Below the pieces are notes generated by a model that was not told the DNA's origin, did not search any database, and saw only the letters and a program-made list of their open reading frames with translations. The position numbers and the translations under genes are program-made. From a virus, in IMG/VR virus record IMGVR_UViG_3300038701_001533, positions 1 to 49,466 of that record: a stretch of DNA of 49,466 bases; one strand, 5' to 3'. Below, one piece after another: positions 5,638-23,935 of this stretch; the stretch's first letter is position 1; every line of letters begins with the position of its first letter.

Positions 5638-5665
5638 TTGAATTTGGCATCGGCCCGCGTATAAT
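5638..5665 (+). promoter_or_regulatory. Sigma70-type promoter of structured RNA 1
   Basis: TTGAAT (5638-5643), a 16-base spacer and a perfect TATAAT (5660-5665). The predicted transcript starts near 5672, exactly where the structured element begins. Confidence 0.8.
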
Positions 5666-5671
5666 ACGCAC

Positions 5672-5743
5672 ATGCCTGCAAGCTACAATCCATCCCCGAA
5701 TAAGCCCCGTCGCATGCTTGCAGGCAAAAGCGGCGGGGTTTTT
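5672..5743 (+). ncRNA. Structured RNA 1: short terminated RNA or attenuator
   Basis: The transcript would begin with TGCCTGCAAGC (5673-5683), the exact complement of GCTTGCAGGCA (5716-5726). A terminator hairpin, CCCCGTCGC (5705-5713) with GCGGCGGGG (5730-5738), is followed by TTTTT (5739-5743). The 5716-5726 strand lies in the loop of that terminator, so the two stems compete, as antiterminator and terminator do. If termination occurs the RNA is about 72 nt. The first loop is C/A-rich and contains CTACAATCC, similar to CTACAACCC in structured RNA 2. An ATG at 5672 opens a 34-codon frame that may be incidental. Confidence 0.65.
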
Positions 5744-6058
5744 ATTCGCGCGGATGGCGGGTTTAATCTGCGGTAAGCTACCCCGAAAAGCCTCCCGTCG
5801 GATGAGAGGCCAAAAGCACCAGCAACGTCAAGGGCCACGAGTACCGCCATTACTGGCGGCTTGGGGATGCGTATCACACAACGCGGCCCGACCCAGTAAG
5901 TTTGACGCCCCGTCTTAATCAGGCTCTGCCCCACCCTGGCAACCTGTACCCGACGTATTTAGGGGTGGTTTGCACTGGAGCCTTTAAATGCCCGATAGCC
6001 TATGTCGGGGATAAAGGGGTGTGGTACGCTTGCTTCACGAGCTGCAACCATGTGACGC
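5744..6058. other. Stretch with no recognised gene
   Basis: About 315 bases between the RNA 1 terminator and the capsid promoter. Short open frames exist (for example 5902-6150 rightward) but they lack ribosome sites, resemble no protein family I know, and the last runs through the capsid promoter. Small inverted repeats such as CCGCC/GGCGG near 5850-5866 are present. I see no clear function. Confidence 0.5.
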
Positions 6059-6087
6059 TTGACAACCACCCGAAAGTAGTGTATATA
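6059..6087 (+). promoter_or_regulatory. Consensus promoter for major capsid gene
   Basis: Perfect TTGACA (6059-6064), 17-base spacer and TATATA (6082-6087). This is the best promoter match on the forward strand and would start transcription near 6094, giving a leader of about 195 bases before the capsid ATG at 6289. A strong host-type promoter dedicated to the capsid would explain high capsid output. Confidence 0.85.
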
Positions 6088-6140
6088 GACAGTAGAGGCA
6101 CCACGCCACCACTGTCGGGACAACCAAATATCAGGCCACG

Positions 6141-6181
6141 CCCGGCCTGACTGGACACCAAGCCAGAGAGCCGGGCCAGTC
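6141..6181 (+). promoter_or_regulatory. H-type pseudoknot in the capsid leader
   Basis: Stem 1 pairs CCCGGC (6141-6146) with GCCGGG (6170-6175). Stem 2 pairs GACTGG (6149-6154) with CCAGTC (6176-6181). Loop 1 is 2 bases, loop 3 is 15 bases, and no base separates the two 3' strands, so the stems can stack coaxially. This is the classic H-type geometry. It lies about 110 bases before the capsid start codon and could stabilise the mRNA or control its translation. Confidence 0.65.
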
Positions 6182-6288
6182 CCATCGGGCCGGAGAATCC
6201 GCAAGGATCGAGCCGGTGAATGGAACGAAGCCAACGAGACGCAAGCCGTCCCGCTGATTTCGCACACCAATCACCAGGAACTCGAACC

Positions 6289-7740
6289 ATGCCGGAACTC
6301 ACCAAGAACAAGATCACCGCCGAAGACTTGGCCGTCGAGCACCTGCTCGGCGTCAAGGCCAAGTCTGTCGATGAGTGGAAGAAGAACGCCAAGAAGCTCA
6401 TCCGCGCCAAGATGCTGCAAGTCGTCGATGCCGAGGGCAACGAGATCGACGCGACGCTGGTTATCAACGCGGTAGCCCCGACCGAAGAAGAAATGGCCGA
6501 CGACATGGAAGATGTCGAAGGCAAAATGGACGGCGAGGACGATGAAGAAACCAAGGCCAGCCAGAAGGCCATCACCGCCGAACTCGTGAAGGGCATCCTC
6601 AAGGAGGCCCGCCGCGAGACCGACGCCCGCATCAAGTCGATGCCGGTCGTGGTCGGCCCCCGCAACGATGACAAGCAGAAGTGCGGCTTTAAGCACTTCG
6701 GCGAGTACTGCACCGCCGTCAAGGACTGGGCACTGACGCAGACCCGCGACGAACGGCTGCTCGCCCCGCAGATCATGAAGGGGCCGGACAAGGAAGGGAT
6801 TCAGACCAAAGCACCCACCACGTTCGGCTCGGCCGGCATCGGTGCGGACGGCGGCTTCCTCATCCCCGATGAGTTCCGCGCCGCCATCAACGAATACGTG
6901 TTCGGCGACCAGGCCCTGCTCCCGCTCACTGATGTCGTGACTGTCTCGGGCAATACCCTTGTGGTCCCCCGTGACGAAACGACCCCATGGGGTAGCGACG
7001 GCGTGCAGGCCAACTGGACCGGCGAGACCGGCACAATCAGCCAGTCCAAGCCCAAGCTCGGCGAGAACACGATCAAGCTCAACAAGCTGGCCGTGCTGGT
7101 CCCGATGACCGAGGAATTGGTCAGTGACTCGGCGGTCGGCATCGAGTCGTACCTTAACTCAAAGGTAGGCCCGAAGATTGACTTCGCCGTGAGCGACGCG
7201 ATCATCAACGGCGATGGGAACGGCAAGCCTGATGGCATCATCAACTCGGGTGCGTTGGTCACCATCGCCAAGGAAGCCGCTCAGACCGCCGACACCATCG
7301 TCACGGCGAACCTGCTGAAGATGATGGCCGGGCTGCACGTCCTCAACGCCGGGTCGGTCCGATGGCTGCATCACCGTACCGCGTTCCCGCAACTGGCGAC
7401 CCTGACCCTTGGCGATCAGCCGATGTTCATCCCTGCCGGTCGTATCGCTGAAACACCCGGCGGCACGCTGCTAGGCTACGGGCTGCTAGGCCACCAGGCT
7501 TGCCAGATCGTCGGCGACCTAAACGACATCCTCGCCATCGACTTCTCGGCTTACCAGTCGGTCGTCAAGGGCGAGGGCGTGCGGCAGGACATGAGCATCC
7601 ACCTGTACTTCGACACCGATGACTTGGCATTCCGCTACGTGTTCCGAGTCGGGGGCCAGCCGAAGTTCACCGCACCGATCACGGACAACAACGGCAGCGG
7701 CACTAGCTCGCCGTTCGTGACCCTCGCGGCCCGCACCTAA
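6289..7740 (+). CDS. Major capsid protein, HK97 fold
   Basis: This 483-residue protein is the HK97-type shell subunit. Residues 1 to about 185 form a charged, helical, acid-rich region (EEEMADDMEDVEGKM) typical of the scaffold-like delta domain that the prohead protease removes. The capsid domain begins near FGSAGIGADGGFLIP and includes the family-typical stretches NGDGNGKPDGI and WLHHRTAFPQL. The start at 6289 is preferred over an upstream frame at 6220 because AGGA precedes it and the pattern MPELTKNK is protein-like. It has its own strong promoter and structured leader, and a strong hairpin follows. Confidence 0.95.
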   Translation: MPELTKNKITAEDLAVEHLLGVKAKSVDEWKKNAKKLIRAKMLQVVDAEGNEIDATLVINAVAPTEEEMADDMEDVEGKMDGEDDEETKASQKAITAELVKGILKEARRETDARIKSMPVVVGPRNDDKQKCGFKHFGEYCTAVKDWALTQTRDERLLAPQIMKGPDKEGIQTKAPTTFGSAGIGADGGFLIPDEFRAAINEYVFGDQALLPLTDVVTVSGNTLVVPRDETTPWGSDGVQANWTGETGTISQSKPKLGENTIKLNKLAVLVPMTEELVSDSAVGIESYLNSKVGPKIDFAVSDAIINGDGNGKPDGIINSGALVTIAKEAAQTADTIVTANLLKMMAGLHVLNAGSVRWLHHRTAFPQLATLTLGDQPMFIPAGRIAETPGGTLLGYGLLGHQACQIVGDLNDILAIDFSAYQSVVKGEGVRQDMSIHLYFDTDDLAFRYVFRVGGQPKFTAPITDNNGSGTSSPFVTLAART

Positions 7741-7756
7741 TCCATGACGTGACGTA

Positions 7757-7803
7757 GGGGGCCGAGCTACACGCTCGGCCCCCACGGTCGCGGTTTTGTT
7801 TTT
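7757..7803 (+). terminator. Strong hairpin after the capsid gene
   Basis: GGGGGCCGAGC (7757-7767) pairs perfectly with GCTCGGCCCCC (7773-7783) around a TACAC loop, and TTTTGTTTTT follows 10 bases later. The distance to the T tract is longer than usual, so it may be a partial terminator or mRNA 3' stabiliser that tunes capsid against downstream expression. Confidence 0.65.
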
Positions 7804-7845
7804 CACCATTGAACCACACGCGGCACGGCCGCAAGGAATTGAACC

Positions 7846-8301
7846 ATGAGCACTAATGCACTCGCCTCTGAACAGGTCGCCCTGCTTGCGACCATTGACC
7901 CCGACGTGACCACCGCGTCTACCGTGACTTCCGACTGGGTATCGGTTGCAGAGTACTACAACTTCGCCGCTATCGTGATGGCAGGCACCCTCGGCTCGTC
8001 CGCCACGGTCGATGCCAAGCTGGAACAGGCTACGGATTCCAGCGGCACCGGCGCGAAGGACATCAGCGGCAAGGCGATCACACAGATGACTCAGGCCGGT
8101 ACGGACCAGTCGGACACCCAGGCCGTCATCAACGCCAAGCCTGACGAACTGGACATCGCTAACGACTTTACGCACTTCCGCCTGTCGGTCACGGTCGGCA
8201 CTGCGACCAGTGACCTCGGCGCGTTCGTGGTCGGCGTCAATCCCCGCAACGCCCCGGCGTCCGACACAGACCTTGCCAGCGTTGGCGAGATCGTCAGCTA
8301 A
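7846..8301 (+). CDS. Putative head decoration or structural protein
   Basis: A 151-residue, Ala/Thr/Val-rich, beta-sheet-like protein with no membrane segment, encoded directly after the major capsid protein, where HK97-type phages often place a decoration protein. Its composition and the pattern of a virion-surface fold (GTLGSSATVDAKLEQATDSS, then FRLSVTVG) resemble the protein at 43686-44045. AAGGA lies 8 bases before the ATG. Assignment is by position and composition, without a recognised catalytic or binding motif. Confidence 0.6.
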   Translation: MSTNALASEQVALLATIDPDVTTASTVTSDWVSVAEYYNFAAIVMAGTLGSSATVDAKLEQATDSSGTGAKDISGKAITQMTQAGTDQSDTQAVINAKPDELDIANDFTHFRLSVTVGTATSDLGAFVVGVNPRNAPASDTDLASVGEIVS

Positions 8302-8327
8302 TCGTTCAGGTCTCCACCGCCGCTCGG

Positions 8328-8355
8328 CACCGGCTAACCCCGTTGCCGGGCTTTT
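8328..8355 (+). terminator. Weak terminator-like hairpin
   Basis: CCGGC (8330-8334) pairs with GCCGG (8345-8349) and is followed by GCTTTT. The stem is short, so it would pause or partly terminate transcription at most. Confidence 0.35.
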
Positions 8356-8381
8356 ACTGACCCCTAATTGGAGACGCAGAC

Positions 8382-8597
8382 ATGCCGAAGATCACCTTTA
8401 CCCGCGACACGCTCCCGCACGAGGGCGGCCCACACGTCAAGGGCGAGACGCTCGATTGCAGCGACGCCAGCGCCCAGCGATGGATCAACCGCAACGCGGC
8501 CCAGATTGCAAAGCAGACCGCCCCCAAGCCCGAGGCTAAGGCCGTGGACGCTCCGCCGAAGGACAAGGCCGTCAAGTTGCCCCCCAAAAAGAAATAG
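8382..8597 (+). CDS. Small head-region protein
   Basis: A 71-residue protein with a compact N-terminal part (MPKITFTRDTLPHEGGPHVKGE) and a Lys/Pro/Ala-rich tail. Small proteins of this form, opening with a short strand followed by G-x-xhyxKGdxhxxxxxxA, are common between capsid and connector genes in siphoviruses. GGAG lies 8 bases before the ATG. No specific function is known to me. The low-complexity basic tail may be unstructured or contact DNA. Confidence 0.65.
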   Translation: MPKITFTRDTLPHEGGPHVKGETLDCSDASAQRWINRNAAQIAKQTAPKPEAKAVDAPPKDKAVKLPPKKK

Positions 8598-8602
8598 CCC
8601 CG

Positions 8603-8851
8603 ATGCCGGACACGATCAAGACCACGCTTGACCGCATGAGCATCGACGCGGGCGACGTGTTGCTGGTCACGGTAGACGCGGCAGACGACCTGCTCAACGT
8701 GGGGCAGAGATTGCAAAAAGAACTACGCGAGTGGGGCTATCAGAACCTGGTCATCGTGACCTACCCCGGCTCGACGGTTGAAAAGCTAGACCCCGACACG
8801 ATGGCCGTACACGGCTGGTATCGCAAGGCGACCCAAACAACCCCGGCGTAA
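8603..8851 (+). CDS. Hypothetical head-module protein
   Basis: An 82-residue protein with alternating strands and helices (IDAGDVLLVTVDAADDLLNVGQRLQKEL) that starts 5 bases after the preceding stop. No Shine-Dalgarno is obvious, so it is probably translated by coupling. No family is recognised. Its place between two head genes, in frame with typical codon use, supports it as a real gene. Confidence 0.65.
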   Translation: MPDTIKTTLDRMSIDAGDVLLVTVDAADDLLNVGQRLQKELREWGYQNLVIVTYPGSTVEKLDPDTMAVHGWYRKATQTTPA

Positions 8852-8854
8852 CCG

Positions 8855-9784
8855 ATGGCTACCACGCTCGACACCTCGATTGCAAAGACCACGCTGGCGG
8901 CAGTAAAGCGGCAGGCGAACATCGTATCCAGTGATGCGGCGTATGACGACAGCATCACCGAATACATAAACGTCGTCTCGCAGCGGATTACCACGCTGCT
9001 CGACGGCCGCGAACTGGTCGCTAATGAATATGTGCAGTGGGTCGACGGGCTGGGTGAGGATGTGCTGTCCCTGCCGCAGTACCCGCTCCAGCGCGTCAAC
9101 CTGCTGGCGTCTGGACGCGACCCGTCGATGACCATCCGCTACACCGGGTCGGGCGTCCGAGCGACGGCACAAGTAACCAGCACCGCACTACGGCTCACCT
9201 CGTGGGGCACTGGCGGCGTCACGGCTACCGATGTGGCATGGGCGGACTATGAGACGGTCGGCGAGGTCGTGAGCTACGTCAACGCTAGCGTGACCGACTG
9301 GACCGCCACGCTTGTTACCGACAACCCAAGCAAGTGGATGCGGCCTTTGGGTGGCCGCGACGCTAAGACAGCGGCCATCGACATCGACGGGCCAAACACC
9401 TTTGATACCCAGTACGAGATTAAGCGCGATACCGGCATGATCCTGTTCCCCTTCGGCGGGCAGGATGTTGACTACTTCGAGCCGGTGAGCGGCCAGCGGC
9501 CTACGAACGGCATGGGGCTAGGCGGCAACTACCTTGGCGGCGCTTCGCCCTTTGGAGGTCTGTCCGTGCTCGTGGACTACCGGGCGGGCTTTGAGACGGT
9601 CCCCGCAGACATCGAACAAGTCGCGCGAGAGATGGCGGTAATGGCGTTCGACGGCAGCTACCGCGACGGGTCGGTGAAATCTGAATCGCTTGGCGGGTAC
9701 AGTTACACGCTGGTTGACCAGGCCGTCGAGTCGGGCCGCTTTGACGCGGTACTCAACCGCTATCGCCGGGAGGTGATGGCATGA
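8855..9784 (+). CDS. Head-tail connector (gp6/gp15-like adaptor)
   Basis: A 309-residue protein. The N-terminal helices (about 1-60, ITEYINVVSQRITTLLDGREL) and the C-terminal segment DYRAGFETVPADIEQVAREM followed by SESLGGYSYTL are the conserved ends of the HK97 gp6/SPP1 gp15 adaptor family, which forms the ring under the portal. The middle 150 residues are an insertion rich in Thr and Gly, making the protein much larger than the usual 100-200 residues. It overlaps the next gene by ATGA. Confidence 0.75.
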   Translation: MATTLDTSIAKTTLAAVKRQANIVSSDAAYDDSITEYINVVSQRITTLLDGRELVANEYVQWVDGLGEDVLSLPQYPLQRVNLLASGRDPSMTIRYTGSGVRATAQVTSTALRLTSWGTGGVTATDVAWADYETVGEVVSYVNASVTDWTATLVTDNPSKWMRPLGGRDAKTAAIDIDGPNTFDTQYEIKRDTGMILFPFGGQDVDYFEPVSGQRPTNGMGLGGNYLGGASPFGGLSVLVDYRAGFETVPADIEQVAREMAVMAFDGSYRDGSVKSESLGGYSYTLVDQAVESGRFDAVLNRYRREVMA

Positions 9785-10158
9785 GCACCACGCGATCCCT
9801 AAGCAACCCGCGAGGACTGTCGGGTCCATCCGGAATCATGCTGGACACCACGATCAGCACCGAGCGCTCCACAAAGACCAGCACCAAAGGCGACGTAGTT
9901 ACGACATTCGCCGCGAACCTGACCAGCGTTGCAGCGAGCGTGCAGCCGGGGCTTTCACGCGAGGCGATCCGCATCGGCGCGGAGCGGGCAGAAGAAACCT
10001 ACGACATCTACGTTATTGCCGGGGTGGACATCACCGTCGGCGACCGCATCGTACACGGCTCGGATAAGTACAACGTGCTGGGCAAACGGGACATGGCGGG
10101 CCGGGGTCGAGCCGAACACTACATTGCATCGCGGATGCCGGGGGTAACGTCGCTATGA
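9781..10158 (+). CDS. Putative head-closure (stopper) protein
   Basis: A 125-residue protein whose core (AERAEETYDIYVIAGVDITV, GDRIVHGSDKYNVLGKRD) resembles phage head-closure proteins, small beta-barrels with a Gly-Asp-x-Ile turn that plug the connector. It has a strong AGGTGATG ribosome site, overlaps the previous gene by ATGA, and sits in the usual order adaptor, stopper, gp10-like, tail terminator. Confidence 0.7.
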   Translation: MSTTRSLSNPRGLSGPSGIMLDTTISTERSTKTSTKGDVVTTFAANLTSVAASVQPGLSREAIRIGAERAEETYDIYVIAGVDITVGDRIVHGSDKYNVLGKRDMAGRGRAEHYIASRMPGVTSL

Positions 10159-10748
10159 CGTATCAAAGCAACCGAGCCAAGATAGACCGAGCGATCGACA
10201 AGGGCATCCGCAATGGCGTGCTCGCGGCCGGCGTGCATTATCAGTCGTCGGTCAAAAAGGCCATGAGCAAGCACGCGAGCAATCGCGGCAACGGCGGGCG
10301 ATCATCGCCTGCGGGCGGTCCGCCCGGCGTCGCTACCGGAACGCTGCGGCGTTCGGTACAGATTGACATCGGCGGGCTGACCCGTGGCGATACGGCAAGG
10401 GTACGGGTTGGAACCAATGTTGAGTACGCGCGGATTCATGAGTTCGGCGGGGTCATCACGGCCAAGGGCGGCGGGCTGACCGTGCCGATCCATCCTGACG
10501 CACGACGGGCCAGTGACCAGGGGCGAAGCGCCCGCGACTTCCCCGACCTCGTGCTGGTCCCGCGACCGGGCAAGCCGCCGCTACTGATCCGTGACCGGGG
10601 CGGGGTGTGGGACATTATGTATGTACTGCCCAAGTCGGTCGTGATGCCCGCTCGTCCGGTGTGGCGTCCGGTGTTCAAGCGGGAGAACAAGCAGATGCAA
10701 GACCTGATCCGTCGCGGCGTCGATGCCGCGCTTGGGGGTGTGGCATGA
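10155..10748 (+). CDS. HK97 gp10-like tail-completion protein
   Basis: A 197-residue protein with the HK97 gp10 family signature: a helical N-terminus with many Lys/Arg, the segment SPAGGPPGVATGTLRRSV and the motif VEYARIHEFGG, then a C-terminal PARPVWRPVF helix. Members connect head to tail or complete the tail. It contains an insertion (about 110-160) with PRPGKPPLLIRDRGG that typical members lack. It overlaps both neighbours by four bases. Confidence 0.8.
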   Translation: MTYQSNRAKIDRAIDKGIRNGVLAAGVHYQSSVKKAMSKHASNRGNGGRSSPAGGPPGVATGTLRRSVQIDIGGLTRGDTARVRVGTNVEYARIHEFGGVITAKGGGLTVPIHPDARRASDQGRSARDFPDLVLVPRPGKPPLLIRDRGGVWDIMYVLPKSVVMPARPVWRPVFKRENKQMQDLIRRGVDAALGGVA

Positions 10749-11158
10749 GCCAGTCTGCTCTGTCGGCCGCGATCTACGACGCGCTTGCGGCGGTGCAAAC
10801 CAGCGGCACGCTATTCAGCGACGTGGGCGGACGCCTCCGATGGGTTGTCGGTGAAACCGCGTTGGACCTGCCGATGTTCGCCTGGCAGTTTGTTGGCGAC
10901 GTGCCCGAGCGGTTCTTTCTCGCGGCGGATGAGACCCGCGATGTGGATGTGCAATACGACCTGTACACGAACCGGGCCGACGGGTTAGCGGCACACGACG
11001 CGATCCGGGGCAAGGCCCGCACGCTGCTAGACCGCGTGACGCTCACCGCTTCGGGCTTTACGCAGGTTCAAAGCTGGATCGACGACTACGGGGCTTCACC
11101 TGTCGCCGAGGGCGACGCCTACAGAACCACGATGACCGGCACGCTGCTGGTCCAATAA
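10745..11158 (+). CDS. Tail terminator-like protein (DUF3168 type)
   Basis: A 137-residue protein that starts MSQSALSAAIYDAL, the usual opening helix of the tail-terminator/DUF3168 family, and has the central sheet DVDVQYDLYTN, the helix GLAAHDAIRGKARTLLD, and a closing strand that repeats the fold. Members cap the tail tube. The start at 10745 overlaps the previous stop by ATGA; the longer upstream frame has no ribosome site. Confidence 0.75.
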   Translation: MSQSALSAAIYDALAAVQTSGTLFSDVGGRLRWVVGETALDLPMFAWQFVGDVPERFFLAADETRDVDVQYDLYTNRADGLAAHDAIRGKARTLLDRVTLTASGFTQVQSWIDDYGASPVAEGDAYRTTMTGTLLVQ

Positions 11159-11173
11159 CGCAAAGGAAACGCT

Positions 11174-11602
11174 ATGGCAACGATTCAAGGACTCGGCGGC
11201 AACATCGCACTCCCGACTGGCTGGAACTTCAAGGTCAGCGGATGGTCATTCACCTACACCGTCGGCACCGAGGAGACGACCGGTTTTGATGATGGCGGAT
11301 TCGAGACGCACGAGCCTGTGTTCGTGCGGTTTGAAGGCTCCGCGACCGGGACGCTGGAGTTCGACGCAACAACCACCGCTCCGATCCCGGCAGCTATGGC
11401 CGACGGCGGCGGCATGGCAGTGGGCGACCTCGCCAGTGCTAAAGGCACCGCGACGTTTACGGCGACAGCCGGCTGCACGCTTGAGGGAACGGTGGTTGTG
11501 ACCAGCCTTCCGATGAACCGCACAGCCAAGGGTCGCGGCGAAGTTACGATCAACCTGCTCGGAAGCGGCGCACTGACGCAGACGTGGGATGAAACCGCGT
11601 AG
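11174..11602 (+). CDS. Major tail tube-like protein
   Basis: A 142-residue, Thr/Gly-rich beta protein (MATIQGLGGNIALPTGWNFKV) with the FDDGGFETHEPV and GEVTINLLGSGALTQTW segments expected of a small tail-tube subunit. It lies directly after the tail terminator and before the tail-assembly chaperone pair, the conserved siphovirus order. AAGGA lies 7 bases upstream. Function is inferred mainly from fold-like pattern and position. Confidence 0.7.
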   Translation: MATIQGLGGNIALPTGWNFKVSGWSFTYTVGTEETTGFDDGGFETHEPVFVRFEGSATGTLEFDATTTAPIPAAMADGGGMAVGDLASAKGTATFTATAGCTLEGTVVVTSLPMNRTAKGRGEVTINLLGSGALTQTWDETA

Positions 11603-11632
11603 ACAAACCCCCAGCCCCGGAGACACTGCACT

Positions 11633-12031
11633 ATGACCCTAGCAGACGACGCAAACCTGCCCGTCAAGTACCTCGGCCAGTCCTACCCGGCACTGACCGT
11701 TGCTGACATCGGGACGCTGATTGAATCACTACCCACGCGGCTTGTGCCACGGCAGCTCATCCCGTTCGTCAGCGTGCATGAGGCGCTGAAGTTTGGGCGG
11801 TCGCCGTACGGCTTGACCTCACTGATGCGGATCGTGTCAGACAAGGCCGGGCATGACCACGCGATGAAACTCAATCCCGGCCAGCAGCTTACGCTCGCGG
11901 GGCGATTGACCGACCGCTTTTATGGGGCGGACGACATCATGGACGATGACGAAGTCGACGACGCGGGCGACCCATCCGAGCCGGAATCTTTTACGGACGC
12001 CCCGGCGAGCTTGCCCACCTCGCCAACGTGA
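11633..12031 (+). CDS. Tail-assembly chaperone, upstream frame
   Basis: A 132-residue acidic protein between tail tube and tape measure, the position of the lambda G-type chaperone. Its last 35 residues are acidic and low-complexity. The next frame, reached by a -1 shift, remains open from 11950 and continues as a protein-like sequence, so a G-GT type fusion is possible; the only obvious slip candidate in that window is TCTTTTAC at 11987-11994. GGAG lies upstream of the ATG. Confidence 0.65.
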   Translation: MTLADDANLPVKYLGQSYPALTVADIGTLIESLPTRLVPRQLIPFVSVHEALKFGRSPYGLTSLMRIVSDKAGHDHAMKLNPGQQLTLAGRLTDRFYGADDIMDDDEVDDAGDPSEPESFTDAPASLPTSPT

Positions 12032-12225
12032 TACAGCGGTTCTACGGGTGCGACCCGTGGGCGCTAAGCATGGGGCAGTGGATGACAAAGCTGCGATCAA
12101 TCAGCGACATCGCAGCAGCAGAGTCGGGCCAGACCAATCACGCGGCCGCAAGCAAGCGGCTTGCTGAGCAAGGAAGGATCGAACGTGGCAGACAGCGTGC
12201 TCTCCAAACTCTCGGTGCAGATTGA
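12028..12225 (+). CDS. Tail-assembly chaperone, second frame
   Basis: A 65-residue frame with a GTG start overlapping the previous stop. The in-frame sequence upstream of the GTG (GELAHLANVIQRFYGCDPW) reads like natural protein, which favours expression as a -1 frameshift extension of the 11633 gene rather than, or as well as, independent initiation. Its C-terminus overlaps the start of the tape measure gene. The role would be to recruit tape measure and tail tube during assembly. Confidence 0.6.
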   Translation: MIQRFYGCDPWALSMGQWMTKLRSISDIAAAESGQTNHAAASKRLAEQGRIERGRQRALQTLGAD

Positions 12226-13456: not shown

Positions 13457-13463
13457 GATAGCC

Positions 13464-16678: not shown

Positions 16679-16684
16679 AGGGAT

Positions 16685-16978: not shown

Positions 16979-16983
16979 GTAAA

Positions 16984-17012: not shown

Positions 17013-17089
17013 AGGCAATCCGGCACTAACTCCCCAGACCCGCAACACCAGCCGGGCATATTCCCGGAAATGACACAAGGAACACCACA

Positions 17090-17950
17090 ATGGCTACCCG
17101 ATTTTGGGATCACGGAGCAGCAACCGGCAACCTCGGCACCGCCGCGAACTGGTCGGCGGACACCGTACCCGTCGCCAATGACATCGCCTGGTTTGAGGGC
17201 ATCACGTCGGGCGGTGACATCACGCTGGGCCTCACCGCCCTGAATAACGCCACGCTCACCGGCAACCTCGACGCGGTGTACATCAGCGCTGCCGCGACGT
17301 ACAAGTTTGGGTCCGCGACGGCCTACGTCGAACTCGGCACCGATGAGTGCGAGATCGGATTCTGGCGACGCCAGGGCAGTCGGCCAAACGGATCGCCCCG
17401 GATTAAGCTCGACTTCGGCAGCCAGGCCACCGAGTGCCGGGTCTACGGCACTGCGGGCACCACGACCGATACCAACCTTGAGCCGTGCCGCTTGCTGTTT
17501 AACAGCGGAACTGCCCGGCTAGACGTATTCAGCCCGCAGGTGCAGAGCCGCGTCGGGGTCGCCACTACGGACCCGGCAGAGACATCAACCCTCGGCACGC
17601 TCAACGTCGATGGCCTGAACGCGGGCGTGACGTGCGGGCCGGGCGTGACGCTGACCACCGCCAACGTCTACGCTGGGAACGCCCTGCTCCAGTCAGCCCC
17701 GACGAACGCCTACGCCTACGGCGGAACTATCAAGATCGCCGCGTACACCGGCACGGTCACGAACGCCAAGGTTGGGGCGGGCGCGACCCTTGACATCAGC
17801 GGCAGTAACCTGACCTTTACCAACGCGATCGAGTTAGACGACGGGGCGACCCTGAACGCAAAGGGGTTCACCGGCTCACTGTCGGGCAAGATTAAACTTA
17901 TGCAAAGCGGAGCGGTCACGATCCTGACCGACGCCGAGGTGACGATCTGA
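17090..17950 (+). CDS. Beta-helix-like tail or fibre protein
   Basis: A 286-residue protein. The opening (NWSADTVPVANDIAWFEG) is the NW-x-x-x-x-x-P-x-x-x-D motif that begins many beta-helix surface proteins, and the rest is a ladder of short strands with regularly spaced Asn, Thr and Gly, up to GATLNAKGFTGSLSG. It is probably a virion surface protein. AAGGA lies 9 bases upstream. It resumes the rightward direction after the leftward accessory pair. Confidence 0.7.
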   Translation: MATRFWDHGAATGNLGTAANWSADTVPVANDIAWFEGITSGGDITLGLTALNNATLTGNLDAVYISAAATYKFGSATAYVELGTDECEIGFWRRQGSRPNGSPRIKLDFGSQATECRVYGTAGTTTDTNLEPCRLLFNSGTARLDVFSPQVQSRVGVATTDPAETSTLGTLNVDGLNAGVTCGPGVTLTTANVYAGNALLQSAPTNAYAYGGTIKIAAYTGTVTNAKVGAGATLDISGSNLTFTNAIELDDGATLNAKGFTGSLSGKIKLMQSGAVTILTDAEVTI

Positions 17951-17952
17951 CG

Positions 17953-18243
17953 ATGCCCCGCACCTACCCCCTCCATCACGGCAAGTACCGCGTCGAGTAC
18001 GCCACGATAGACGGGCTGTGCGAGTTGCCGTTGCACCTGTTCCGCAAAGACCCGCCGCCGAAGTACCTGACCATCACCATCGACCCGAGGCTGCGGGGCC
18101 GGGCAAAGCTAGAGGCGATTTTGCACGAGTCGCTACACGCGGCGAATCCGACGATGAGCGAGGCGGACGTTAGCCGCATCGCCAAAGAGCAGGCCGACAT
18201 TGCCTGGGGCGAGGGCTACCGGAACAAAGCGGAGATTAAGTGA
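17953..18243 (+). CDS. Small zincin-like metallopeptidase candidate
   Basis: A 96-residue protein with the zinc-binding signature HESLH at residues 58-62 (AILHESLHAANP), preceded by the strand YLTITIDPRL and followed by a helical segment that includes EADVSRIAKEQ. HExxH on a helix is the hallmark of zincins, but the protein is very short, and the third ligand is not obvious. Similar small proteins occur in phage tail or late regions. A peptidase role is family-based inference; no endolysin is recognised elsewhere in the genome. Confidence 0.65.
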   Translation: MPRTYPLHHGKYRVEYATIDGLCELPLHLFRKDPPPKYLTITIDPRLRGRAKLEAILHESLHAANPTMSEADVSRIAKEQADIAWGEGYRNKAEIK

Positions 18244-19124
18244 TGCAGTGGACCACCGACCGCGTATCCAAGTCTGTTTTGAAAGTGAAGGTTCACACCG
18301 AATCCGCCGAGGACTTCGAGCAGTGGTTCCTGCTCAAGTCTGACGACCACTGGGACAATCCGAAGTGCCGCCGCGACCTGCTCAAAAGACACCTTGACAT
18401 GGCGGTGGATCGCGGGGCCGGCATCATCGGCGGCGGCGACCTGTACTGCGCGATGCAGGGCAAGTATGACAAGCGGTCGAGCAAAGACGACGTGAGGCCC
18501 GAGCACCAGAACGGGCGATACCTTGACTCGCTAGTGGACACGGCTGCGGACTGGTACGAGCCGTACTCAAAGCACATGGTCTGTGAGGGTCAAGGCAACC
18601 ACGAAACCGCAATCAAGAAAAACCACGAGACAGACCTGAACGAGCGTCTTGTGTCGGCGTTGCGCGCGAGAGGTAGCGGCGTTGAGGCGATGGGCTACGG
18701 GTACTGGATCCGGTTCCAGTTGAGCCGGGGTTCACAACGCCAGTCGTTTTTAATGAAGGTGTTTCACGGTTCGGGCGGCGGCGGCCCCGTAACCAAGGGC
18801 GTGATTCAGACCAACCGGCGGGCGGTGTTTCTGCCGGACGCGCACATTGTGATGGGCGGGCACGTTCACGAGGCCTGGTCGGTTTGTCTCCGCCGCGAGC
18901 GGTTATCGCAGTCGGGTCGGCTCTACCACGATTCGCAGTGGCACGTCTGCACCGGGACATACAAGGAAGAATACGGCGACGGCAGCGGCGGCTGGCACGT
19001 TGAACGCGGGGCACCGCCGAAGCCGGTCGGCGCGTGGTGGCTACGGTTCTACTTCCAAGACCCGAAGTTTGTCTATGAGCTGATCCCGGCGTTTGAGAAC
19101 CACACCGAGATTCGGCAGGCCTAA
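18243..19124 (+). CDS. Calcineurin-like metallophosphoesterase
   Basis: A 293-residue protein with all main metallophosphoesterase motifs in order: SDDHWDN near residue 33, GGGDLY near 60, EGQGNHE near 118, FHGSGG near 170, and GGHVHEA near 205. These bind two metal ions for phosphodiester or phosphomonoester cleavage. Phage members act on DNA, RNA or nucleotides. A GTG at 18240 directly precedes the chosen ATG and would add one residue. It is the last gene of the rightward late operon, before the early promoter. Confidence 0.85.
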   Translation: MQWTTDRVSKSVLKVKVHTESAEDFEQWFLLKSDDHWDNPKCRRDLLKRHLDMAVDRGAGIIGGGDLYCAMQGKYDKRSSKDDVRPEHQNGRYLDSLVDTAADWYEPYSKHMVCEGQGNHETAIKKNHETDLNERLVSALRARGSGVEAMGYGYWIRFQLSRGSQRQSFLMKVFHGSGGGGPVTKGVIQTNRRAVFLPDAHIVMGGHVHEAWSVCLRRERLSQSGRLYHDSQWHVCTGTYKEEYGDGSGGWHVERGAPPKPVGAWWLRFYFQDPKFVYELIPAFENHTEIRQA

Positions 19125-19140
19125 TCCCCGCGAGGGCGAT

Positions 19141-19173
19141 TTTCCGTAACCGGAAAGTTTCCCGTCCGGGAAA
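19141..19173. promoter_or_regulatory. Tandem palindromes, operator-like
   Basis: Two inverted repeats stand side by side: TTTCCG-TAAC-CGGAAA (19141-19156) and TTTCCCG-TC-CGGGAAA (19158-19173), with centres 17 bases apart. They end 15 bases before the -35 box of the early promoter. Similar half-sites at this spacing suggest a cooperative dimeric regulator. Confidence 0.6.
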
Positions 19174-19188
19174 ATCCGCACAAGCGTA

Positions 19189-19217
19189 TTGACCCCGCCC
19201 GATTCGCTCGGTAGACT
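19189..19217 (+). promoter_or_regulatory. Early promoter of structured RNA 3 and the 19.4-23.4 kb operon
   Basis: TTGACC (19189-19194), 17-base spacer and TAGACT (19212-19217). The start point would be near 19224, giving a leader of about 150 bases before the first gene at 19377. Confidence 0.8.
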
Positions 19218-19235
19218 TGGGCTACTCAACAAAAT

Positions 19236-19268
19236 GGGACCGGCGAGTGCGTCAACACTCCCGGTCCC
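19236..19268 (+). promoter_or_regulatory. Strong hairpin at the start of the early leader
   Basis: GGGACCGG (19236-19243) pairs with CCGGTCCC (19261-19268), extended inward by GAGTG/CACTC around the loop CGTCAA. No T tract follows, so it is not a terminator. It is the 5' cap-like stem of the leader RNA. Confidence 0.65.
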
Positions 19269-19275
19269 GTGGCCA

Positions 19276-19362
19276 GTACAGGGCTGGCAAACATGACCTT
19301 ACCACATTCACAATCAGAATCAACCCGGCTGACGCGCCCTGTACGCGCTGGCCGGGTTGTTT
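19276..19362 (+). promoter_or_regulatory. Structured RNA 3: attenuator-like leader
   Basis: GTACAGGGC (19276-19284) is complementary to GCCCTGTAC (19336-19344). A second stem, AACCCGGC (19322-19329) with GCCGGGTT (19351-19358), is followed by GTTT and would place the 19336-19344 strand in its loop. The stems are therefore mutually exclusive, as in an antiterminator/terminator switch. The long first loop is C/A-rich and contains TCACAATC, comparable to the loops of RNAs 1 and 2. GGAG and the first early gene follow directly. Confidence 0.6.
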
Positions 19363-19376
19363 CGTTGGAGCATGGC

Positions 19377-19781
19377 ATGAGCGACTACCGCGACAAAACG
19401 ATGAACATTCAACCGCCCAAGCCGTCCGAGAAGGGCAACAGTCCGGGCGTCGAGTACAAGTTGGGCCACCGCGACGCCCGCCACGCTGCGGCGGAGATTG
19501 CTTGCGAGGCCGACGCCGAACTCACATCCCTCCGCGACAAGCTGGCGGAGGCGGAGGCGATCATCGGGAAGCTGCCTAAGACGGCGGACGGCGTGACGGT
19601 GGTTCCGGGGATGGTCGTATACGACGAAGAAGGACACTCATTCCGGGCTAGCGCGTGGCTATCAACAAACGGGTACTGGACATCCGGCAAGTACGAAGAT
19701 GAGTCCGATTCGATACGCGCCGAATCGTTTTTTGCAGACCAATCCGCCGCCCTTGCCTCCCAGAAAGCGAGCAAGCCATGA
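19377..19781 (+). CDS. Early hypothetical protein, KLPKTADG family
   Basis: A 134-residue acidic protein, first in the early operon. It has an N-terminal helix with ADAELTSLRDKLAEAEAI, the motif KLPKTADGVTVVPGM near residue 65, and a C-terminal FFADQSAALAS. The motif and C-terminus recur in the protein at 35776-36210, and the first helix recurs at 33775, so these small proteins share modules. The start follows GGAG. A longer upstream frame at 19269 would read through the leader structure and is rejected. Function unknown. Confidence 0.75.
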   Translation: MSDYRDKTMNIQPPKPSEKGNSPGVEYKLGHRDARHAAAEIACEADAELTSLRDKLAEAEAIIGKLPKTADGVTVVPGMVVYDEEGHSFRASAWLSTNGYWTSGKYEDESDSIRAESFFADQSAALASQKASKP

Positions 19782-20233
19782 AGAATCTAAAAGTAAAGTT
19801 CGTCCCACTCGAAGACCCCAAGCCGGTGACGCTGGACATGATGCCGTACGCCGTGCCTTGCGTGGTCAGCTACCAAGGATCGCTGGCGGTCAGGCTTCGA
19901 GTCGCCCACGGCGTCCACCGCGTCAAACCTGACGGCAATGGGCACGGATGCCACGCTAACGATAATCAAGACCCGAGTTTTTACACTGTCCTCTCCCGTC
20001 TCGACGGCCTCCCCCTCCCCTCTGGAGACGGCGAGCCGGTCCCGCTGGACACGCTGGAGACTTGGCCGGTGTGGTATCGGGACGCCGAGATTATGGGTGA
20101 GGGATATGTGTCGCAGGGGGCGGACGGAGACACGGTACACGATGACGGGGCCACAAGCAGCGAACCGAGTAATGTCCGCGTCTACCCCCGCCCCTACATG
20201 ATGGTAACGGAGGTGGAAGATGCCGACGACTAA
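19778..20233 (+). CDS. Early hypothetical protein
   Basis: A 151-residue protein in the early operon, overlapping its neighbour by ATGA. The N-terminus KNLKVKFVPLEDPKPVTLDM reads as a beta-strand and the protein contains HANDNQDP and PVWYRDAEI segments. No membrane segment, cysteine cluster or catalytic signature is visible. It is likely an early accessory protein; I do not recognise a family. Confidence 0.65.
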   Translation: MKNLKVKFVPLEDPKPVTLDMMPYAVPCVVSYQGSLAVRLRVAHGVHRVKPDGNGHGCHANDNQDPSFYTVLSRLDGLPLPSGDGEPVPLDTLETWPVWYRDAEIMGEGYVSQGADGDTVHDDGATSSEPSNVRVYPRPYMMVTEVEDADD

Positions 20234-20549
20234 GACCCAGACCCCCCGCATCCAGCCCGCGTACACCGACGACGCTCAGGAGATCGCCAATGCTGCGGCG
20301 TCGGCGGCGACCGTGTACTGCGACGGCTTCACCGAGCGCGGCGACGGCGGGGTGGATATTGACCTGTCCTGCTACCTCAACGCGGGCAATGAGTTGGGCA
20401 TCCCGCCGACGCTTGTGGGCCGGGTCTGCCGGGAGTTTCGCAACGGCGGATTCTGCGAGGCCGAGGTATTCCTGCGGCTGATTGAGTTTCGCTGGGACGG
20501 GAGCAGCCCGGTGTACACCTACTGCGTTCACAAGATTAAGCACGTTTAA
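20220..20549 (+). CDS. Early hypothetical protein
   Basis: A 109-residue protein with a very strong GGAGGT ribosome site located in the end of the preceding gene, which it overlaps by 14 bases. It carries several cysteines (YCDG, LSCYL, VCREF, GGFCE) and helices typical of a small globular protein. No family is recognised. The strong ribosome site suggests it is made in larger amounts than its neighbours. Confidence 0.65.
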   Translation: MPTTKTQTPRIQPAYTDDAQEIANAAASAATVYCDGFTERGDGGVDIDLSCYLNAGNELGIPPTLVGRVCREFRNGGFCEAEVFLRLIEFRWDGSSPVYTYCVHKIKHV

Positions 20550-20639
20550 CCACCGGCCGCGCGTCAGGCGTCGCCAGGCCGCTCGCCTTCCCCATCGTAG
20601 GGGCGGGCGGGATTACCAAACCCCCTACAGAGAGACACC

Positions 20640-21224
20640 ATGAAAACGATAGACATCAACCTACACCTTTCCCCTGAAACTTTGGCCGAGTACGAGGCCA
20701 AGCTGCGAGACGCGACCCGCCGCGCGATCGCATCGGTGCTGACAGACTTCGCGCCCGACGACTCCACGAACGTCAAGCCCCCCAAGACCGAGGGCATGAA
20801 CTGGGAGGAAGCGAAGGCGGCGATGGAGGGCGGGGCGTGCTGTGCGCGATATTGCCGCTTTACTACCGGCGAGATCACCCCGCACCGGTTGCATAAGGGC
20901 GTACCTGAATGGTGGGTGTGCGGATCGTGGAGTAAAACCTTTATCGGCGCGTGTGATACCCACGCCACCGACTGGCGTATCGTCCCCGACCCCAGCAAGC
21001 CTGCCGAGGAAGCGAAGCCCGACCCCTACCCCCTGACCCGCGAGCAAGCCCTGGACCTGCTGGCGGGGGGCAAGCGGGTGAGGCACCACGGCATGGACGA
21101 TGGTAGCTATTGCACCTTGAACCACCGGGCGGAGGTCGTTATCAAAGACAGGTGCGACGAGGTTGTCAACGAATACATTGAAAAGTCTTTCCTCACCGCC
21201 ACCCGCTGGCAAGTGCTCGACTAA
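20640..21224 (+). CDS. Tandem Tad2-like (DUF2829-type) domain protein
   Basis: A 194-residue protein. After an N-terminal helix, residues about 53-120 start MNWEEAKAAMEGG and end ATDWRIV; residues about 132-194 start LTREQALDLLAGGKRVR and end ATRWQVLD. Both have the form hxxxEAhxxhxxGxxVxR ... DWxhh of the DUF2829/Tad2 fold. Tad2 proteins sequester the cyclic ADP-ribose-type signal of Thoeris defence. Two copies in one chain are notable. The similarity is a pattern seen by eye, so anti-Thoeris activity is a hypothesis. Confidence 0.55.
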   Translation: MKTIDINLHLSPETLAEYEAKLRDATRRAIASVLTDFAPDDSTNVKPPKTEGMNWEEAKAAMEGGACCARYCRFTTGEITPHRLHKGVPEWWVCGSWSKTFIGACDTHATDWRIVPDPSKPAEEAKPDPYPLTREQALDLLAGGKRVRHHGMDDGSYCTLNHRAEVVIKDRCDEVVNEYIEKSFLTATRWQVLD

Positions 21225-21294
21225 CCCACAGCCCTTGCCCCGCCGCTCTGTAATAGGTAGGCGTGGATTCACAACCCTTACCGGAGACAACAAG

Positions 21295-21774
21295 ATGAGC
21301 CTCACAAACGAAATCACAAGAGCCGCGACCGAGAACATCAGCAGCATCGACTGCGACAGCACGCCCGAGCAGATCGCCGAGGTGGTGCTAGCTATGGAAG
21401 CCTGGTCCGACGCGGTCAAGGAATCGCAAAAGATGCTGAAAGAAGCCCTGCACGAATGGCTGAATCAGCAGGACAAAGGCACCCAACTCATCATCGGGAC
21501 CAAGAAGTATTACATCGGCTCGACCGTCACGAAGAAGGCCAACGACAACGCGGCGGCATTGCAGGCGTTGTTTGAAGCGACCGGCGGCGACATGGAGGAA
21601 GTTGGCAAGTGCATCAGCAGCGGGGCGTCGGCGTTCAAGCTTGCCAAGTGCAAGCAAGTCCTAGGCGACGAGGCTTACAAGGAGCAGTTCACTGAGCTTG
21701 TGAAGAAAGACGTTAAAGGCGAGACGGTTAAAACGCTCAAGGCTGTAGACACCCGATTCCTACCACAAGGATAA
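21295..21774 (+). CDS. Conserved early protein next to the annealase
   Basis: A 160-residue, helix-rich protein with GGAG 8 bases upstream. It reads like a phage recombination-associated protein: helix AEVVLAMEAWSDAVKESQKMLKEAL, a central strand TQLIIGTKKYYIGS, and a C-terminal helix with KDVKGETVKTLKAVDTRFL. It is only 3 bases upstream of the Rad52-like gene, so it is probably co-expressed with single-strand annealing. I do not know its biochemical role. Confidence 0.65.
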   Translation: MSLTNEITRAATENISSIDCDSTPEQIAEVVLAMEAWSDAVKESQKMLKEALHEWLNQQDKGTQLIIGTKKYYIGSTVTKKANDNAAALQALFEATGGDMEEVGKCISSGASAFKLAKCKQVLGDEAYKEQFTELVKKDVKGETVKTLKAVDTRFLPQG

Positions 21775-21777
21775 GCC

Positions 21778-22431
21778 ATGTTTACCGACGAACAAAAGAG
21801 AATGTTGGATGCTCCGCTGGTGAGCGATAAAGTAAAAAGCCGCCAAGGGCTTTCGTATATCGAAGGATGGCACGCGATCGCCGAGGCCAACCGGATATTC
21901 GGCTTCGACGGCTGGGTACGCGAGACGGTGTTGATGCAGGAAACCAACCGCGAGCTATTGGAGTTAAGCGAGCGGGGCCAGAAGTATGAGCAGTGGCGCG
22001 TCGGCTACATGGCAAAGGTGCGCATCACGGCGGGCGGCGTGGTCCGCGAGGGCGTCGGCTTTGGCATCGGGATCAGCAAGCCTGACAGCCTAAGCAACGC
22101 TATCGAGTCGGCCTGCAAAGAAGCAGAGACGGATGCCATGAAGCGGGCCATGATGACGTTTGGCAACCCGTTCGGCCTGGCGTTGTACGACAAAGATAAA
22201 AAGAACGTGGTCGATCCTGATCCGCTTGAACACACCGAGCAGGCAAAGAGAATCATCGCCAGCGCCATGAAGGGGTGCGGCGTGCCGCATGACAAGATGG
22301 CGGGTTTGTTCAAGCATTGGCTCGGCGAGCTTGGCATCACAGAGTTTGAAGATACGTCGGTGGCTCAACGTAAAGAGTTCATCGAATCCATTCAGAGCGG
22401 GAAATACACCCCGCAGAAAGCAGAGGCTTGA
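21778..22431 (+). CDS. Rad52-family single-strand annealing protein
   Basis: A 217-residue protein with the Rad52/22 core: GLSYIEGWHAIAEANRIFGFDGW near residue 25, ITAGGVVREGVGFGIG, and the highly typical KEAETDAMKRAMMTFGNPFGLALYDK near 115. These proteins form rings that anneal complementary single strands during phage recombination and replication. The last 70 residues form a separate helical tail. AAGGA lies 6 bases before the ATG, and the SSB gene follows immediately. Confidence 0.92.
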   Translation: MFTDEQKRMLDAPLVSDKVKSRQGLSYIEGWHAIAEANRIFGFDGWVRETVLMQETNRELLELSERGQKYEQWRVGYMAKVRITAGGVVREGVGFGIGISKPDSLSNAIESACKEAETDAMKRAMMTFGNPFGLALYDKDKKNVVDPDPLEHTEQAKRIIASAMKGCGVPHDKMAGLFKHWLGELGITEFEDTSVAQRKEFIESIQSGKYTPQKAEA

Positions 22432-22432
22432 T

Positions 22433-22957
22433 ATGAGTTTTAGTTGGAAAGACAAAGCAGAGGAAGGCGGCACCGCCGCGTCGATGCCCGAAGGCTACCA
22501 CAAGGTAACCTGCGTCAAGGTGCAGCGCAGCACGAAGAAGGTAGACGACCTGCGGGCCAAAGACGGCTCGCCACAAGTGCTGACCGTGTGGCGCAACTCG
22601 ATGGATCAAGAGGCGGCGGTATACTTCACCCTAAGCGAGAAGGCGGTCGGCATCCTTGCCAGCATGTTGAAATACAGCGGCGCGGACCTCGACAAAATGG
22701 ATCAAGCTGGCGTGACGTTGGATCGGTTCGCCGACGAGAGTTTTGCCGAAAAGCAATTGCTCAACCGCCAGTGCTGGTGCTGGGCCGAGCAGGACGGCAA
22801 GTACACGAACCTTAGTTTCGTGTCCGAGGAAAACGCCAAGGCGGGGATGAAGAACTTGCAGCCCGTTGGCGGCGGCTCGGCGACCCCTGACGGCTACAGC
22901 GGATCAGGCTACCAAGACAACCACCAGGCGGTTGAGGACGACGACATCCCCTTCTAA
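22433..22957 (+). CDS. ssb: Single-stranded DNA-binding protein
   Basis: A 174-residue protein that starts MSFSWKDKAEEGG and ends in an acidic tail closed by DDDIPF, the classic SSB C-terminus that recruits partner proteins. The middle (YHKVTCVKVQRSTKKV, QVLTVWRN) matches the beta-barrel of phage DUF669-type SSBs. The start at 22433 overlaps the stop of the annealase gene; the longer frame is a shadow. It would coat single strands in replication and feed the Rad52-like annealase. Confidence 0.85.
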   Translation: MSFSWKDKAEEGGTAASMPEGYHKVTCVKVQRSTKKVDDLRAKDGSPQVLTVWRNSMDQEAAVYFTLSEKAVGILASMLKYSGADLDKMDQAGVTLDRFADESFAEKQLLNRQCWCWAEQDGKYTNLSFVSEENAKAGMKNLQPVGGGSATPDGYSGSGYQDNHQAVEDDDIPF

Positions 22958-23001
22958 GCCTCCTTCTACTTCGGCCCGTCCTAACCGGCGTGCCGGGGTT
23001 T

Positions 23002-23412
23002 ATGCCCGAGATCATCGTCAACATGGATGACGCGGCCAAGCGGACGCGGATCGCCAACCGCATCAACGACCTGCGGGGCATGTACCGCATCGAAGTGACG
23101 CGGTATCGGCGGCGGCGGTCGGATCGCCAGAATCGCTTTTACTGGCCTTGCATGGTCAAGCCGTTCGGCGACTTCCTCCGCGAGCAGGGCGAGGGCGTGA
23201 CAGACCTGGAAGCCCACGAGATACTCAAGTCTCGGTTCCTGCGCAAGACCATCACAGACCCCAAGACGGGCACGATGATGGACTACACGCGGAGCACGAC
23301 GGAGCTTGATACCGCCGAGTTCAATGCCTACTTGGATATGTGCTCCGCATGGCTGGCGAATATGTTCGGGTTTATCATGCCTGATCCAGCGGACTACCAC
23401 GAACGAGACTAA
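23002..23412 (+). CDS. NinB-like recombination protein
   Basis: A 136-residue protein with the pattern RSDRQNRFYWPCMVKPFGDFL near residue 35, EAHEILKSRFL near 70, and TRSTTELDTAEFNAYLDMCSAWLANMFGFIMPDP at the end, seen in phage NinB/Orf-like recombination proteins. It closes the early recombination operon, right before a strong terminator. A GTG at 22990 would add four residues; the ATG at 23002 follows GGGG and is preferred. Confidence 0.7.
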   Translation: MPEIIVNMDDAAKRTRIANRINDLRGMYRIEVTRYRRRRSDRQNRFYWPCMVKPFGDFLREQGEGVTDLEAHEILKSRFLRKTITDPKTGTMMDYTRSTTELDTAEFNAYLDMCSAWLANMFGFIMPDPADYHERD

Positions 23413-23463
23413 CCCCCGCAGCCCTGTTGCCCCTGTCCCGCTTCGGTGGGGCGGGGGTTTTTT
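23413..23463 (+). terminator. Intrinsic terminator of the first early operon
   Basis: CCCCCGC (23413-23419) pairs with GCGGGGG (23451-23457), with an inner CCC-GCTTCGGT-GGG stem, followed by TTTTTT (23458-23463). It ends the recombination operon. Confidence 0.85.
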
Positions 23464-23476
23464 AGAATCGTTCTAA
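23462..23476. promoter_or_regulatory. Perfect palindrome, possible operator
   Basis: TTAGAA-TCG-TTCTAA forms a 6-3-6 inverted repeat between the terminator and the next early promoter. TTAGAAT also occurs twice in tandem at 32508-32522, overlapping the -10 box of the third early promoter. Confidence 0.5.
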
Positions 23477-23511
23477 TGTAAGAAAAAACATAGAAAAGCG
23501 GCGGAAAAGTA

Positions 23512-23539
23512 TTGACACGCCACCATCCGAGTTTATGAT
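23512..23539 (+). promoter_or_regulatory. Early promoter of structured RNA 2 and the 23.7-32.2 kb operon
   Basis: Perfect TTGACA (23512-23517), 16-base spacer and TATGAT (23534-23539). The start point is predicted near 23546. Confidence 0.85.
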
Positions 23540-23545
23540 CTGTCC

Positions 23546-23635
23546 ATGCGAGCCTCGTCCTACAACCCGACCTATCCCGGCGAGGCTCGCACCCCCGGAC
23601 AGGCACCGTGCCCCTTAACCGGGCGCGGTGTTTTT
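23546..23635 (+). ncRNA. Structured RNA 2: promoter-proximal hairpin plus terminator
   Basis: The transcript starts almost directly with GCGAGCCTCG (23548-23557), perfectly complementary to CGAGGCTCGC (23581-23590), around a C-rich loop containing CTACAACCC. A second hairpin, CACCGTGCCC (23604-23613) with GGGCGCGGTG (23621-23630), is followed by TTTTT, an intrinsic terminator. Termination would yield a 90-nt RNA; read-through enters the operon. Layout and loop resemble structured RNA 1 (CTACAATCC). An in-frame ATG at 23546 exists but has no ribosome site. Confidence 0.65.
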
Positions 23636-23659
23636 ATGCACACTAACCCAGGAGCGACC

Positions 23660-23935
23660 ATGCAAGACCTCGACGACGAACTACTCGACCGGATGCACAC
23701 CCGCGTATTGGCGGAGCGGCTTGGACTGCTTGACGACTGCCCGCCGATGAAAGAGTCTGCCGCGTATGACGACCCGAGCACTCCGCTTTGCTACTACGGC
23801 CAAGCACGGCACCGCGAGGATGACCAGGACCATGCCCCGCCGTCGTCGCGTGACGGGGACGCGGTGCGGTTTGGGCTGGCGTTGGTCGTGATATTCGGGT
23901 TGATGAGCTTGCTGGTGTGGCTTGCTGGTTACTAA
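23660..23935 (+). CDS. Small protein with C-terminal membrane anchor
   Basis: A 91-residue protein, first gene after structured RNA 2. The N-terminal two-thirds is soluble and acidic (MQDLDDELLDRMHTRVLAERLGLLDD), and residues about 71-90 form one transmembrane helix (LALVVIFGLMSLLVWLAG). GGAG lies 5 bases before the ATG; another ATG at 23636 would add 8 residues. It is likely a membrane-anchored early host-interaction protein. No family is recognised. Confidence 0.7.
   Translation: MQDLDDELLDRMHTRVLAERLGLLDDCPPMKESAAYDDPSTPLCYYGQARHREDDQDHAPPSSRDGDAVRFGLALVVIFGLMSLLVWLAGY

Follow-up and report, generated by a model that had tools for sequence, protein, structure and literature searches.

A conserved structured noncoding RNA beside the capsid genes of two phages, with a candidate transcription switch at its 5′ end

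In the virus record IMGVR_UViG_3300038701_001533 of IMG/VR, a promoter-like sequence at 5.6 kb is followed almost at once by a long perfect stem and a terminator-like hairpin, and the question raised by this locus is what kind of RNA it specifies. A sequence-only reading had placed it in a family of three promoter-proximal RNAs with built-in terminators, at 5.6, 19.2 and 23.5 kb, that would be either short phage small RNAs (sRNAs) or put-like or attenuator elements. We have analysed the whole record (the window: 49,466 bases, 61% G+C, with most genes on the + strand as judged by its open reading frames); the features of these three sites and the capsid gene are all on that strand. The segment 5672–6025 is most likely a new and apparently undescribed structured noncoding RNA of about 355 nt, with the ‘built-in terminator’ lying inside it; a short paralogue of its 5′ domain appears at 23.5 kb, and the 19.2 kb site is not a member.

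At 5.6 kb a sigma-70-like promoter (5638–5665; −35 TTGAAT, 16-nt spacer, −10 TATAAT) is separated by six nucleotides from ATGC at 5672, the predicted start site. The perfect 11-bp stem (5673–5683/5716–5726) begins its 5′ arm at transcript base 2 and encloses a C/A-rich loop containing CTACAAYCC; the motif CTACAATCC, at 5683–5691, is common to the 23.5 kb element. The same loop holds the 5′ arm of a GC-rich, terminator-like stem (5704–5713/5730–5739) with T5 at 5739–5743. Sequences and coordinates of promoter, stem and hairpin are as originally read. In our consensus structure helix H1 (5′ arm 5674–5683, 3′ arm 5716–5725) and the terminator-like hairpin H4 (5704–5743 with its T5) interleave, the 3′ arm of H1 sitting in the loop of H4, so that the two are mutually exclusive in simple folding or else form a pseudoknot; the proposed mutual exclusion thus holds topologically. 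A transcript simply ending at 5743 is not supported, since the 72 nt taken for the RNA are the first part of a larger element reaching 6025, and the conserved RNA runs about 280 nt beyond the hairpin.

This larger element is defined by comparison with the one real relative found in IMG/VR, a phage record we call L163, which a pattern combining loop and terminator recovered along with three unrelated matches. When the two whole sequences are compared by blastn there is a single match, between window 5672–6025 and L163 9644–9289, with 82% identity, or 87% over ungapped columns. Similarity starts at the predicted start site and stops at the strand (6021–6023) that pairs back to TAC at 5684–5686 (transcript nt 13–15), thereby closing the long RNA in the consensus fold. 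L163 has a promoter, TTGACG-17-TATAGT, likewise six bases ahead of ATGC, and the promoter-to-start distance is identical in both phages. Their major capsid proteins (MCPs) are 26% identical and their other head proteins give no match at E 1e-3; these thus appear to be otherwise barely related phages that share one highly similar RNA. The indels between the two copies, of 1, 2, 3, 4 and 10 bases, are not in threes, which rules out that the element is conserved for its coding.

Pairing is conserved together with sequence. The consensus structure, to which we added the crossing helix H1, has 106 pairs; 100% of its cells are standard pairs in the two phages, with seven two-sided changes, two one-sided and none broken, whereas a control in which the 3′ partners were slid gave 35–42% paired and 0–1 two-sided changes. 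Substitutions occur in 16 of 212 paired columns, with no gaps, against 28 substitutions and 24 gaps in 155 unpaired columns. The most conserved part is a core multibranched domain (5773–5973, closed by 5773–5784/5962–5973), delimited by alignment, fold and our covariance model R1. The cleanest covariation evidence is provided by H1 and H4, because these had been recognised beforehand from one sequence: H1 has two two-sided compensatory changes and no broken pair, H4 has one two-sided and one one-sided change and no broken pair, and the T5 of H4 is identical in L163. Taken alone, these two helices carry seven changes without a broken pair, for which the chance is 0.00015 under uniform and 0.0026 under transition-biased substitution. 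Covariation of the stems in a relative was the sequence-only reading's own check, and both stems bear it out. Helix H3, whose 5′ arm (5691–5695) pairs with 5752–5756, adds one two-sided and one one-sided change, again with no pair broken. Compensatory base changes and indels that are not in threes are the marks of a structured noncoding RNA, and we are highly confident that a conserved structured RNA exists here.

The 23.5 kb element is isolated from upstream genes by a strong intrinsic terminator (23429–23463). Its promoter, TTGACA-16-TATGAT (23512–23539), is again followed after six nucleotides by ATGC, at 23546, and the element (23546–23635) consists of a perfect 11-bp stem (23547–23557/23581–23591), the loop motif CTACAACCC at 23560–23568, and a separate terminator (23604–23613/23621–23630) with T5; the original description of this site was accurate as to promoter, stem and terminator. 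Here the stem and the terminator stand apart, without interleaving. The 24-nt gap before the next gene, which begins at 23660, leaves no room for another promoter; given also the isolating terminator upstream, the element would be either a short sRNA or an attenuated leader. Alignment of the 5.6 and 23.5 kb RNAs gives z 4.9, with none of 2000 dinucleotide shuffles as good (a post hoc test), and that of the L163 and 23.5 kb RNAs gives z 5.0, again with 0 of 2000 shuffles as good. Judged from sequence, the 5′ domain of the long RNA has a short paralogue in the 23.5 kb element, which ends in an ordinary terminator. Long stems are not in themselves rare, as three perfect stems of 11 bp or longer, with loops of no more than 60, occur in the window against 0–2 in six Markov shuffles; it is the shared order that is improbable. 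The two promoters are the two highest-scoring + strand promoters in the window, CTACAAYCC is found twice in the window and only at these sites, and of 72 −10-like hexamers no others are followed by ATGC at a distance of six bases. A further promoter-like site, TTGAAC-16-TAGAAT (32487–32514), lies in an intergenic gap without the stem and terminator layout. Pairing in trans between the 23.5 kb loop and the long RNA's 3′ end was considered and rejected, being no better than in shuffles (p 0.15–0.18).

The third proposed site (19189–19362) does have strong hairpins and folds well (z −6.5). Its promoter matches at 9 of 12 positions, a class about as frequent in shuffles, it lacks the ATGC start, and its tail is TTGTTTCG and not a T-run; its similarity to the other two elements is at chance (p 0.23 and 0.12). 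The argument that a shared layout speaks against chance therefore stands for two unlinked sites, 5.6 and 23.5 kb, and falls for 19.2 kb, so that a family of two members remains. Short DNA repeats occur inside genes at 19.4, 33.9 and 35.9 kb; those at 19.5 and 35.9 kb encode related proteins of LPKTADG(V/L) type, and the 35.9 kb protein has no match in the phage database.

The front of the long RNA has the arrangement of an attenuator, with two mutually exclusive stems, one of them an intrinsic terminator, and two-sided compensatory changes in both. When nascent prefixes are folded, the structure of lowest energy is H1 from +55 up to +66 in the window and up to +62 in L163, and in both phages H4 becomes the best fold only once the U-run is approached. 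Polymerase hides the last dozen or so nucleotides of nascent RNA, and because H1 folds first it should already exist at the moment of decision. From these models we infer that H1 is probably a kinetic antiterminator and the long RNA its read-through product; for a front-end switch between stopping and continuing transcription we would put the odds slightly short of even. In the explanation that we prefer, a dedicated sigma-70-type promoter, sited in the interval from the prohead protease gene to the MCP gene, drives the long RNA, the first 75 nt of which act as a transcription switch. H1 would form on emergence and block the GC-rich H4, so that polymerase would normally pass and the long RNA be completed, while delay or disruption of H1 would allow H4 to halt transcription near 5743. 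Once the RNA is complete, H1 and H4 would either be present together in a pseudoknot or exchange with each other, and its 5′ region would pair with the 3′ end. The operon at 23660 would be served by a reused copy of the front domain with an ordinary downstream terminator (23546–23635), acting as an sRNA or as an attenuated leader. From its position and strong conservation, the long RNA probably has its role at the stage of head morphogenesis, either in trans, which we propose only tentatively, or as the leader part of a longer MCP message. As a whole, we give this explanation a probability of about 0.55. The earlier choice between short sRNA and put-like or attenuator element is thereby recast: a put-like or attenuator element is possible for the first 75 nt at 5.6 kb, the principal object there is a larger noncoding RNA, and at 23.5 kb sRNA and attenuated leader both stay in play.

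Several points weigh against this explanation. With all 72 nt present, H4 exceeds H1 in stability (−25.5 versus −21.6 kcal/mol in the window and −20.6 versus −17.6 in L163), so that termination could dominate and some termination at 5743 is likely. As stem and terminator at 23.5 kb do not interleave, a switch cannot work there by the same route. Apart from H1 and H4, the two sequences used to evaluate the structure had also served, in part, to derive it; two long copies are known, and most helices never vary between them, so that covariation bears on few of the others. Finally, the window scan recognised no terminator between 6025 and 6289, the interval that separates the long RNA from the MCP gene.

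This last observation favours the alternative that survives best, in which a ~617-nt untranslated leader, beginning with the conserved RNA, acts in cis on the MCP gene (6289–7740; likely start MPELTKNK, the reading frame opening at 6220) through attenuation, stability or translation control. In both phages the RNA is flanked by the prohead protease and MCP genes (in the window a ParB-like gene and a Mom gene also lie between these two), and about 600 nt separate the start site from the MCP start. However, a promoter-like TTGACA-17-TATATA (6059–6087) follows the RNA and precedes the MCP gene, with a weaker counterpart, TTGACA-17-TAGCCT, at the same place in L163; the similarity does not reach the gene but stops about 260 nt before it, at 6025, in a strand that pairs with the 5′ region; and conservation of the RNA far exceeds that of the gene that it would regulate. 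With its own promoter and a second promoter-like sequence before the MCP gene, an independent RNA is favoured over a pure leader, which we consider unlikely, if worth keeping in view. The sequence at 6059–6087 is strong, yet was skipped by the promoter scan for want of the final T in its −10 hexamer.

Could the two sites instead specify short terminated sRNAs, of 72 and 90 nt, with the downstream conservation at 5.6 kb belonging to a separate element? Good intrinsic terminators are present at both sites, T5 and hairpin are conserved in L163, and start, loop and terminator are common to 5.6 and 23.5 kb; but conservation is continuous from 5672 to 6025, nt 13–15 pair with the 3′ end, and H1 precedes and blocks H4, making this improbable.

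The put system of phage HK022 offers another model, since its RNAs bind the β′ zinc-binding domain of RNA polymerase and suppress distant terminators. On this model a promoter-proximal RNA would bind polymerase so that the terminator following it, and later ones, are ignored. The elements described here resemble HK022 putL and putR in having an RNA structure at the 5′ end of the transcript, at position +2 as in putL, with terminators beyond it, and in being two related copies per genome; both sites are followed by a terminator, and the operon at 23660 has no other visible promoter in the 24-nt gap. The putRNA, compared here by description, is ~70 nt with two adjacent stem-loops (PMC9378689), whereas our elements have one stem, interleaved with the terminator (5.6 kb) or preceding it (23.5 kb), so that antitermination of this kind is quite improbable.

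Conservation of a DNA element, such as a packaging, recombination or replication site, is in keeping with the exceptionally high DNA conservation between otherwise unrelated phages and is nonetheless very improbable, as the boundaries match the promoter-defined start, the promoters are independently kept, and substitutions keep Watson–Crick pairs. Leaderless leader peptides from the start-site ATG (MPASYNP..., MRASSYNP..., MLAGYNP...), a reading prompted by the ATG at +1 in all three RNAs and the shared SYNP/GYNP, were dropped as next to impossible because changes in the first 54 nt are mostly non-synonymous (by eye), later indels shift the frame, and the rest is non-coding.

Among known systems, GOLLD and ROOL RNAs and HK022 put are the closest comparisons in the open-access literature, and neither fits as membership. 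GOLLD and ROOL assemble as homo-oligomeric RNA cages. They are large, extensively base-paired noncoding RNAs of phages and prophages, of unknown function (PMC12286853), and like them the 5.6 kb RNA is extensively paired, noncoding and carried in a phage genome; unlike them (roughly 600–800+ nt, in a tRNA island) it is ~355 nt, lies beside capsid genes and was found in two copies, and their Rfam covariance models match neither the window nor L163. Attenuators and riboswitch expression platforms likewise have mutually exclusive stems, the earlier blocking an intrinsic terminator, and both covary here; in contrast, the candidate switch here heads a conserved noncoding RNA that extends for ~280 conserved nt past the terminator, and no ligand domain precedes it. 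The pRNA of phi29, a noncoding RNA of the packaging motor, is also linked to the head stage, but differs in size, context and genes, and the comparison, by Rfam search only, was negative. In 6S/oop-type elements of lambdoid late promoters, a promoter, short RNA and terminator stand ahead of a phage operon, those at late promoters being under the control of Q-type proteins; the window yielded no Q-like gene, where no systematic search for one was made. We regard the long RNA as a new RNA family of a known kind. That it is a mobile, capsid-linked unit, self-contained, moving between unrelated tailed phages, acting in trans in head assembly or packaging, gated by its own switch, a copy of which the phage would also place at the head of a second operon, is a distinctly unlikely extension.

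Further copies were sought widely, with the proviso, applying to all of these searches, that an empty result without a positive control shows little. Rfam 15 gave no family match above the gathering threshold in the window and none in L163, with sub-threshold matches only near 5.6 kb and none over the 23.5 kb RNA. In IMG/VR a strict start-site, loop and terminator pattern had zero matches, a loose one gave chance AT-rich sequences among the matches listed, and downstream-core patterns found L163 alone, with chance matches in bacterial genomes. Blastn against phages and plasmids gave no meaningful match. In 294 Planctomycetota genomes a DNA search gave short chance matches only and R1 none; 399 Pseudomonadota, 241 Verrucomicrobiota and 9 genomes of one planctomycete class had none either, and R1 found L163 only among the loci and 46 full records of relatives of TerL and MCP. 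Thus no third copy was found in named phages, plasmids, ~940 bacterial genomes or by IMG/VR patterns, these being small genome samples and exact patterns.

Several neighbouring features deserve mention. The capsid protein has 36–40% identity to proteins of Planctomycetota genomes (E down to 5e-64), a hint, though not proof, that this may be the host phylum; the long RNA is not present at the planctomycete loci with the best MCP matches. Directly 3′ of the capsid gene a perfect 11-bp GC-rich hairpin (7757–7783) precedes a T-rich stretch and is a probable terminator or mRNA end. The Mom DNA-modification protein (4864–5595; PF25680, E 1.7e-51), encoded next to the ParB-like gene, lies between the protease and capsid genes, and the 3′ end of its gene is overlapped by a degenerate tRNA-Gly(UCC)-like sequence (5549–5625) that scores 18 bits with the Rfam tRNA model, under the 29-bit cut-off, and matches, at 79.5% in DNA, a tRNA-Gly annotated in a Salinibacter phage; nearby, an in-frame TAG stands just ahead of a GGANPTPALF-like reading. 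A Rad52-family gene (21778–22431; PF04098) matches Microcystis phage Mvi-Yong1342-1 at ~82% DNA identity along part of the gene, which suggests recent exchange. The record ends (1–125 and 49340–49466) overlap by ~125 bases with a one-base discrepancy, as in a terminally redundant or circular assembly.

Few large structured RNAs have been described in phages, and most of these await explanation. The promoter-defined start of this RNA, its covarying candidate switch, its constant place ahead of the capsid gene and a conservation far above that of the surrounding proteins make a capsid-stage role, or the horizontal exchange of RNA modules, directly testable, and the reuse of its front domain at a second operon provides a natural control for the switch.

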